Origin: an uncultured Pirellula sp.
GTDB lineage: Bacteria > Planctomycetota > Planctomycetia > Pirellulales > Pirellulaceae
Length of the DNA: 37,199 nt
Direction of reading: 5' to 3'
Assembly (NCBI GenBank): GCA_903892355.1
Contig: CAITIE010000009.1
Location: 1 to 37,199, forward strand
Each line of letters starts with the position of its first letter. Position 1 is the stretch's first letter. A model generated the notes under the pieces. That model saw nothing but the letters and a program-made list of their open reading frames with translations, made no database searches and was not told the DNA's origin. The translations under genes were made by a program, and so were the position numbers. Below are positions 1,548 through 3,773 of the stretch, one piece after another.

Positions 1548-3773
1548 TTATGTCGCTTCGGCGATGTCTTCGGCGGATCCGACCTCGGTGGTTTCTCCAG
1601 CAATGTGAGGCGCTGTGATCGTTTTTGCGAGTGCCGGTGGTTCGTCCACCCTGAGGATTTGTCCATCGAACAACTCCATCACCCGCTTCACCAACGGATC
1701 GGTCATCGCTTCTCGAATTTTTTGGTTCTGAGGGACAGAAGGTCGAGCGACCGGAGCGGGTAGCGAGGCTGCGGTCGATCCATCCCCCGATTTTTCGTTA
1801 GGCAATCCTCGGTCGGTCAGCACGAACTCAAAGCCCAAGGATTGTCCGATGGTTTCTTTGAGGGTTTCCGATAATCGTCGAACATTTTCAGTCGACCGAA
1901 AATGTTGTAATCCAAAGGCAGCTTCCTTGGCCAACAAAACACGCCAACGCGTCGCCGATTCCTCGATCACATCCAATGCCATGACGCCACATTGCTGCAC
2001 AAGGCCGTCGAGTCGCAATGCGGCCTCTCGAAATACATCTAGTGCACTTCGATCCCCTCGCAGTTGAGCTGCAGGCGTTACAGACGCTGCTGCCGACTGC
2101 GCTGCGGCTTGGGAGGCCGCCGATGGTGCTTTGGATGGCTCCGGTAAAGGGTTCGCTCGTGCAGTGCTCGCTTGAGCGGAGCTCACCGGTGCAGGGCTCT
2201 GCGGGGCGACTCTGTTTCCATGCAATGCGACGTTCGACGCAACCGCTTCTGAGATGCGGTTGGATTCAGTGGAATTGATACCAACGGAATTGATTTCAGC
2301 CGGAGTATGAGCAGCCCGCGGGTTGGTTTCTCGAACCGAGTTTGTCCGCTCAGCCGCACTATCGTCTTTCGATTCGATGGCTGCGTCTACGTGCGCTATT
2401 TGTGCAGATGCCAAGTTTGCTGATGTCGGGGGGGAGGTATCTACGTTATCTTTTTTTTTTGAATCGTCCGAACTGAAATTGGCCGAGTTTCCCGTCGGTG
2501 TTTGGGCGGAATTCGATGCTGGCGATGTGGATGCCGGCGGTGAAAGAGATTGCGCAGGTCGCGTCGCAGGGCGTGCCCCTGTCGCTGGAACTTGATTCTG
2601 CGAGAGGCCTTTCACCACATCGGCTAAGGCTTGGAGGTCGACCAACGAGCAGATCTGAACCAAAGCCACTTCCAGAAGAATGCGGCTCTGAACGCTGTGC
2701 TTCATCCGCACGATGGTTTCATCGAGCAATTGCATCGCGGAGAGCAAGGTCATCGTTCCCCAGCTTTTGCCAGCGTCTCGCAGTTGGTCGAAGCTATTGG
2801 GGTTCGCCGTTCGCATCAGTTCAGCAGGACCACCGATCGACACGGCCATCATGTCTCGCAAATAACCTAGCAATTGTTCCGCGAGTTGTCCCGGATCCAC
2901 GCCGGCGCTGACGGCTTGGTCCAATTCCACCAACGCGGCGCTCGGGTTGCGGTTGATCATGCATGATGCGAACGAAGCCAGCCGGGTTTCATCGGCCGTA
3001 CCAAGCATCGCATGGACATCCTCGACGGTGATGCGAGACCCACCGAAGCTGAGGAGTTGCTCGAGCAAGGACTGGCTGTCGCGCATCGATCCCGCGGCGC
3101 GACGGGCGATCAATCGCAATGCAGCGTCATCCGCTTGCGTGCCCTCGGTGTCGCAGATGAATCGCAATCGGCCGAGGATTTGATCGGTATGAACCGGAGG
3201 GAAATCGAAACGCTGGCAACGCGACAGCACCGTGATCGGAATCTTTTCCGGATCGGTGGTGCAGAAGATGAACTTCACATGCCCCGGTGGCTCCTCCAGC
3301 GTCTTGAGCAGAGCGTTGAACGCTTGGGTGGTGAGCATATGGACTTCGTCGATGATGTAGATCTTGTATTTCGAACGGGTCGGGCGAATCGATGCGTTGG
3401 CCCGGAGCTGACGTATCTCGTCGATCCCGCGATTGCTGGCCCCGTCGATCTCGATGACGTCCATGTCGTCACCGGAATCAATGGCCAAGGCGATCTCGGA
3501 ATCGGGATCGAAGTTTCCTGAGCCATCATCGGAGGCATTCAGGGCTTTTGCAAAGATGCGAGCCGTGCTCGTCTTGCCCACCCCTCGTGCCCCGGTGAAC
3601 AGATAAGCATGTCCGACTCGGTGGGTTTCGATCGCCCGTAAAAGGGCGTGAGCCACGGTATCTTGACCGACCAACTCACCGAATGTCTTGGGACGGTAAC
3701 GGCGCGCAACGACGGTGTATTTTTCATCCCCCGTTTCGCCATTACCTTCGTGATTGTGTTCGTTCACCGTCAA
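1548..3773 (-). CDS. dnaX: DNA polymerase III subunit gamma/tau
   Basis: The clamp-loader ATPase that loads the sliding clamp and, in its long form, ties the loader to the polymerase. The 741-residue protein has a Walker A motif at 61-70 (GARGVGKTST), Walker B with DEVH at 139-145, and the sensor motif SRC at 184-186. The AAA+ and collar domains run to about 390. A Ser/Pro/Ala-rich linker spans about 395-600, and a C-terminal tau region runs to 741. The usual four-cysteine zinc module after Walker A is missing: residues 78-105 contain no cysteine. Codons 438-441 lie on a run of ten A where slippage would end the protein at about 442 residues. The usual downstream partners ybaB and recR are not found; only transposon relics follow. 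The start at 3773 is the first ATG of the frame, and the gene is divergent from the ThuA gene. Confidence 0.95.
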   Translation of the reverse strand: MTVNEHNHEGNGETGDEKYTVVARRYRPKTFGELVGQDTVAHALLRAIETHRVGHAYLFTGARGVGKTSTARIFAKALNASDDGSGNFDPDSEIALAIDSGDDMDVIEIDGASNRGIDEIRQLRANASIRPTRSKYKIYIIDEVHMLTTQAFNALLKTLEEPPGHVKFIFCTTDPEKIPITVLSRCQRFDFPPVHTDQILGRLRFICDTEGTQADDAALRLIARRAAGSMRDSQSLLEQLLSFGGSRITVEDVHAMLGTADETRLASFASCMINRNPSAALVELDQAVSAGVDPGQLAEQLLGYLRDMMAVSIGGPAELMRTANPNSFDQLRDAGKSWGTMTLLSAMQLLDETIVRMKHSVQSRILLEVALVQICSLVDLQALADVVKGLSQNQVPATGARPATRPAQSLSPPASTSPASNSAQTPTGNSANFSSDDSKKKDNVDTSPPTSANLASAQIAHVDAAIESKDDSAAERTNSVRETNPRAAHTPAEINSVGINSTESNRISEAVASNVALHGNRVAPQSPAPVSSAQASTARANPLPEPSKAPSAASQAAAQSAAASVTPAAQLRGDRSALDVFREAALRLDGLVQQCGVMALDVIEESATRWRVLLAKEAAFGLQHFRSTENVRRLSETLKETIGQSLGFEFVLTDRGLPNEKSGDGSTAASLPAPVARPSVPQNQKIREAMTDPLVKRVMELFDGQILRVDEPPALAKTITAPHIAGETTEVGSAEDIAEAT
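2451..2460 (-). promoter_or_regulatory. Predicted slippage/frameshift site in dnaX (A10 run)
   Basis: On the dnaX strand the sequence is GATTC, ten A, GATAAC, read as Ser-Lys-Lys-Lys-Asp (residues 438-442). A -1 shift, or one extra A in the transcript, gives Lys-Arg and then TAA. A +1 shift, or one A fewer, gives Lys-Ile-Thr and then TAG. Both alternative frames therefore stop at once. The product would hold the AAA+ and collar domains without the tau region, about 442 residues, close to E. coli gamma (431). Thermus thermophilus dnaX makes gamma by transcriptional slippage on an A9 run. I saw no obvious stimulatory hairpin downstream. The functional claim is inference. Confidence 0.6.

Follow-up and report, generated by a model that had tools for sequence, protein, structure and literature searches.

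We propose that a run of ten adenines (A10) in the dnaX gene of an uncultured Pirellula sp. is a programmed transcriptional slippage site, from which one gene would yield both gamma and tau; judging from the comparative pattern in related genomes, we give this reading a probability of about 0.8. The window, by which we mean the whole 37,199-nt stretch of DNA analysed here (contig CAITIE010000009.1), carries dnaX as a single open reading frame (ORF) on the minus strand, with tau in the zero frame. Its product scores 420.8 bits against TIGR02397, for which the cut-off is 250, and is the only match above the cut-off in the genome. At positions 2451-2460 the plus strand reads as ten T, and the coding strand reads TCA AAA AAA AAA GAT AAC. 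The gene is laid out as follows.

1548..3773, minus strand: dnaX ORF, tau form, 741 amino acids (aa) from TTG, a putative start (ORF and TIGR02397)
2451..2460, minus strand: A10 run, xxA AAA AAA AAA G (codons TCA AAA AAA AAA GAT), read from the sequence and conserved in relatives
2446..2448, minus strand: TAA reached in the -1 frame after the gain of one A or a ribosomal shift of -1, predicted product of 442 aa (sequence)
2441..2443, minus strand: TAG reached in the +1 frame after the loss of one A, predicted product of 443 aa (sequence)
2610..3665, minus strand: clamp-loader core, contained in both products, with AAA+ (PF13177, residues 37-194), lid (PF22608, 198-245) and domain III (PF12169, 248-388) (Pfam; Foldseek match to the E. 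coli gamma complex)
2061..2582, minus strand: predicted disordered linker holding the run, about residues 398-571, nearly all with pLDDT below 50 (structure model)
1800..2057, minus strand: C-terminal folded domain, about residues 573-658, weakly like tau domain V and DnaA domain I and absent from the short product (model, profile and fold match)

With an A gained, or with the ribosome shifted by -1, the product would end in SKKKR, and with an A lost, in SKKKIT. The original prediction had described an A10 in dnaX with immediate stops in both other frames, which we confirmed at 2451-2460 with the TAA and the TAG listed above; the shifted products of 442-443 residues that it anticipated were likewise recovered, counting from the TTG at 3773, the putative start. 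It had also placed the truncation beyond a clamp-loader core reaching to about residue 390, in agreement with the end of Pfam domain III at residue 388.

How might one gene give two proteins? RNA polymerase would add or drop A's on the run, so that dnaX mRNAs of several run lengths would coexist. Transcripts with 10+3n A's would be translated into the full-length tau of 741 aa, and those in either other frame would meet a stop within a few codons, releasing a gamma-like protein of about 442-443 aa. Such a protein would retain the AAA+ module and the oligomerisation domain III and lose the C-terminal domain. What we observed is the A10, the two stops, the conservation of both and the arrangement of domains; from these we infer that slippage occurs in the cell with the polymerase, and not the ribosome, as its agent; both proteins would then be made and used.

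Domains of the two products

The structure model is numbered so that 18 must be added to its residues to obtain those of the protein, and in its own numbering the disorder spans 380-553 and the confident C-terminal domain about 555-640. Foldseek matches the core of the model to the E. coli gamma complex with an E of about 1e-22. The predicted gamma-like product would therefore keep AAA+, lid and domain III and end within the disordered linker. The C-terminal domain is likely to be tau domain V. Its profile matches a gamma/tau chain (4iqj_M, E 0.0065), two DnaA chains being slightly better, and in the fold comparison 5fkv_E, 5fku_E and 2aya come third to fifth, after DnaA domain I, and all the E-values are weak (about 0.02). 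The title of entry 2aya names the tau C-terminal domain, and 5fkv_E and 5fku_E are chains that we take to be E. coli tau. Because the DnaA matches rank ahead and the E-values are weak, the naming is not firm. The C-terminal domain of tau binds the alpha subunit of the polymerase in other bacteria.

Rarity of the run and its conservation in the genus

The whole 6.18-Mb assembly contains only two A10/T10 sites, namely the dnaX run and a T-run after a 5S rRNA gene (the latter identified by eye), and the A10 in dnaX is therefore not a matter of chance. A9 occurs at 11 further places in the genome, five of them inside sense-strand ORFs of at least 150 aa (putative genes). In five genomes of the genus (G004, G006, G012, G020 and G022), the dnaX run is the sole A10 of the assembly. 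Eight genomes from other genera of the class each have 1-7 A10 rows, overlapping rows being counted; one A10 lies just downstream of the dnaX core in six of these eight, and the remaining two have an A9 in dnaX (L031, L107). Separately, two members of the genus (L357 and L364) share an A10 in matching context within a non-dnaX ORF of 301-321 aa.

The dnaX core and linker lie on one contig in 21 of 27 genomes of the genus, and all 21 have exactly A10. Two further linkers on split contigs (G013 and G018) also show A10 followed by near stops, giving 23 of 23 visible linkers; among the other four genomes, G003 has a contig break in the run, and no dnaX linker was recovered from G002, G011 or G015. 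Because every visible linker has exactly ten A's, the sequencing error that the original prediction had held in reserve against itself can be ruled out. All 21 linkers have the A10 in phase 2 (xxA AAA AAA AAA G), and the lysines are preceded by S, A, L, P or V, always with a codon that ends in A. L022 and L026 each contain an additional A10, which is in phase 1. Two A9/A10 runs per dnaX linker, about 40 or 4 codons apart, are found in these two loci and also in L093, L095-L098, L100 and L136. The contig of L379 (G003:C236) ends three bases into the dnaX A-run, and it is conceivable that assemblers break there.

Conservation in the class and beyond

A run of A9-A11 is present in 161 of 185 dnaX linkers of the class Planctomycetia, 4 of 189 class loci having been left out because they are cut off before the linker. 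By sampling level, the carriers number 21 of 21 in the genus, 60 of 68 in the family, 41 of 49 in the order and 39 of 47 in the class, counts to which one genus may contribute several species, so that the loci are not independent, and for which the sampling covers part of the matches; the family level, for example, comprises 70 loci outside the genus from 113 matched genomes that include a few genus members. The carrier genes span 43-71% GC, and the run is positioned 335-398 aa past the Walker A motif.

The longest run in a class linker is either 9-11 or at most 7 A's; the carriers' linkers contain 11 runs of six, one of seven, three of eight, 82 of nine, 86 of ten and two of eleven, and the rest of the same ORFs (227,016 nt) contains 44 runs of six, five of seven and three of eight, with none longer. 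The flanking DNA, by contrast with the run, is near chance identity, at 0.27-0.30 for 160 class loci and 0.28-0.42 for 19 genus loci, values that come from an ungapped alignment on the run and so understate likeness, the identity of 1.0 for the run itself being by construction. The pattern for which the original prediction advised looking, a run kept while the linker diverges, with out-of-frame stops nearby, was thereby strongly upheld in both genus and class.

Outside the class but within the phylum, the run is found in 8 of 65 loci, a set in which two loci are truncated by contig ends and several encode short DnaX proteins without tau; 53 of the 65 either have a run or extend to 400 aa beyond Walker A. 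Four of these eight carriers (L226, L239, L255 and L258) are genes of 62-70% GC. DnaX ends about 332-373 aa past Walker A in L253, L254, L261 and others outside the class, which probably have no tau region. Some Verrucomicrobiota, like these Planctomycetota outside the class, also have A9-A10 runs in dnaX. A second collection of 80 named loci, kept out of the counts because its records may duplicate assemblies of the first, has a run of 9 or more in 22 of 28 loci labelled Planctomycetota and in 6 of 52 others; the named carriers include Aporhodopirellula aestuarii, two Schlesneria and Limnoglobus, all with A10, and Gemmata sp. IIL30 with A9. Two genomes (G171 and G183) each have two full-length dnaX-like loci, which may reflect contamination or duplication.

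Nucleotide run or lysine peptide

Is it the run of nucleotides that is kept, or the peptide that it encodes? An in-frame run of at least nine A's encodes at least two lysines, so that a lysine tract is common to all carriers, and selection on a lysine-rich linker peptide might have left the A-run as a by-product of codon usage. We regard this explanation as very improbable. Elsewhere in these genes AAA accounts for 47% of lysine codons, whereas the runs consist purely of A; when the same protein is synonymously recoded, a run of 9 or more survives in only 12% of simulations. The codon phase and the flanking residues also vary (QKKN, EKKT, AKKKD, KKKE), and a demand for lysines leaves the out-of-frame stops unexplained. 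The run occupies codon phases 0, 1 and 2 in 16, 66 and 79 carriers, respectively. On a FastTree tree of 184 class and 5 outgroup loci, parsimony requires 27 phase changes; 55 of the 185 inner branches are weak, and the strongly supported branches alone force 12-13 phase changes (phase 1 or 2). Since the run occurs in all phases and has changed phase repeatedly, we conclude that the nucleotide run, and not the peptide, has been kept.

Stops in both wrong frames

Both wrong frames stop within 12 codons after the run in 83% of carriers, compared with 9% of draws at other linker positions. In another comparison, the codons after the run were recoded synonymously in 100 rounds, following the codon usage of the gene concerned. 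A stop within 8 codons in each of the two wrong frames is present in 119 of 157 carriers, whereas the recoded sets average 19.2 such genes and never exceed 28 (the three two-ORF loci described below and one further locus were omitted from the 161). The same test found stops in the +1 frame to be strongly over-represented. Because -1 frameshifting by the ribosome does not need them, these stops count against it, and their excess is, at the level of comparative sequence analysis, the strongest individual argument against simple -1 ribosomal frameshifting. The stops could instead have been selected as guards against accidental slippage.

Features of ribosomal frameshifting

Could the ribosome nevertheless be the agent, slipping back on the A-run as in E. 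coli, by programmed -1 frameshifting, and meeting a stop one codon later to make gamma? The -1 stop is certainly very close, lying within 12 codons in 94% of the 161 carriers and generally at a shorter distance than the +1 stop (medians of 2 and 4 codons); such runs also hold A_AAA_AAA in frame, so that some ribosomal slippage is possible. However, only 19 of 161 carriers have the strong E. coli heptamer A_AAA_AAG in frame, and the runs are of 9 or more A's, although 7 would be enough for the ribosome. The gene in the window has no in-frame A_AAA_AAG, as TCA AAA AAA AAA GAT lacks an AAG codon, and no Shine-Dalgarno sequence, expected about 10 nt upstream, was seen by eye in the 30 nt upstream of its run. 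Across carriers there is neither enrichment of an upstream Shine-Dalgarno sequence (1.2% of carriers versus 4.7% of controls) nor a downstream hairpin, the downstream folding being slightly weaker than in controls. The composition-corrected folding z-scores of carriers average -0.09 upstream and -0.23 downstream, the latter scored in carriers only; the 50 nt downstream of the run in the window give a z of -1.7, modestly stable for their composition, which tells somewhat against slippage in this gene. The E. coli architecture, for which we sought the heptamer, the Shine-Dalgarno sequence and hairpins across carriers, was not supported, and together with the excess of +1 stops these results make ribosomal frameshifting an unlikely source of gamma here.

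A hairpin in the nascent RNA upstream of the run was also considered and rejected. The upstream folding energy is lower in carriers than in controls (-10.6 versus -8.8), but the z-scores do not differ, and we discounted the energies because GC is higher there. The 40 nt upstream of the runs in the 161 carriers have a GC content of 0.67, compared with 0.59 for other linker stretches, and this may matter for slippage.

Exceptions to the frame and linkers lacking the run

The ORF continues for at least 80 aa past the run in 153 of 161 carriers, and 157 retain tau in frame beyond it (including 20 of 21 genus ORFs), three of these 157 being cut by contig ends. The exceptions are L012, L030, L143 and L180. 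In the last three, the zero frame stops just after the run and a long open frame, apparently tau, lies in another frame; blast supports the displaced tau frame in L143 and L180 and gives no support in L030. These three loci represent either assembly errors or a two-ORF arrangement. L012 belongs to the genus (G012); its zero frame runs into a stop 16 codons past the A10, the end of tau being in another frame, and this linker is broken or misassembled by an indel, whether in the DNA or in the assembly. Two Opitutaceae loci (L307 and L333) and one locus of Planctomycetota outside the class (L255) have an ORF that stops right after A10, with the -1 frame open for 116-218 aa.

Such displaced frames bring to mind a contingency locus, at which replication slippage in the DNA would toggle tau between cells (phase variation), and long homopolymers are indeed mutable. 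Yet tau stays in frame past the run in the 157 carriers as far as their sequence goes, and the tau of dnaX is expected to be essential, so that we see next to no likelihood of this explanation.

The run of 9 or more is absent from 24 of 185 class linkers. Scanning these 24 for slippery heptamers with a second triplet of A or T only, we found one in frame near a stop in just two, L102 (A7, with a stop 5 codons further) and L054 (with a stop 4 codons further); other heptamers in these loci lie at least 37 codons from a stop, and no clear substitute was seen. Gamma made by slippage on the run would therefore be dispensable, or replaced, in some lineages. The tree requires 17 changes in the presence of the run, gains and losses pooled, which suggests that the trait has changed several times within the class.

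Implications and comparison with known systems

If transcriptional slippage on the run is true, the recoding route of Thermus thermophilus extends to most of a class with large, often GC-rich genomes, and more than 100 natural variants in phase, length and flanks would be available for learning what slippage by bacterial RNA polymerase needs. It would also argue for selection of a gamma-like short DnaX in Planctomycetia. We may speculate further, with considerable doubt, that selection in this class acts on the run as its unit, rather than on the reading frame: slippage may be so efficient that it matters little whether tau or gamma lies in the zero frame (as in L030, L143 and L180), the run may re-phase freely, and slippage may be a commoner bacterial route to gamma than ribosomal frameshifting.

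Several routes to gamma have been described. E. coli dnaX makes gamma by -1 programmed ribosomal frameshifting (PMC5009743), and the product proposed here resembles that gamma in ending a codon or so after the shift and at a similar place in the protein. Unlike E. coli dnaX, the gene in the window lacks the heptamer and the Shine-Dalgarno sequence, carriers show no hairpin enrichment and stops are present in both wrong frames. Gamma of Caulobacter arises by proteolysis (PMC5009743), likewise from tau, but by a process that needs neither an A-run nor stops. Closer parallels are the two-ORF dnaX genes, in which recoding is needed for tau; a passage in PMC3711429 counts 17 such genes in 12 genera, 12 of them with poly-A and nine of these with 10 A's. 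They share with the present gene an A10 run and a proposed transcriptional slippage, and are resembled by L030, L143 and L180 in the class, the Opitutaceae L307 and L333, and L255 outside the class. The gene in the window differs from them in being a single ORF, and such a gene would presumably have escaped that survey, since the survey, as its text describes it, sought frame transitions. The openly accessible literature that we searched yielded no report of slippage in planctomycete dnaX.

The closest parallel is with Thermus thermophilus, in which an A-run of at least nine likewise lies in the linker of a single-ORF dnaX, with tau in the zero frame and close stops in both other frames. Transcriptional slippage on the A9 of that gene was reportedly described by Larsen et al. 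in 2000. It is treated as established in passages of PMC1088944 and PMC5009743, and the latter, a review, offers a second lysine tRNA as a reason for slippage in Thermus. The planctomycete genome has a tRNA-Lys(CTT) gene, which fits the two lysine tRNAs of Thermus; we assume that the other lysine tRNA is also present. Planctomycetia differ from Thermus in belonging to another phylum and in having a run that is mostly A9 or A10 and occurs in all three codon phases; slippage on it is here predicted from sequence. The comparative pattern nevertheless favours slippage of the Thermus type over ribosomal frameshifting of the E. coli type, and lends support to the slippage route that the original prediction had suggested. 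Slippage on A9 is known from Thermus dnaX; what would be new is its apparent occurrence across most of the class Planctomycetia.
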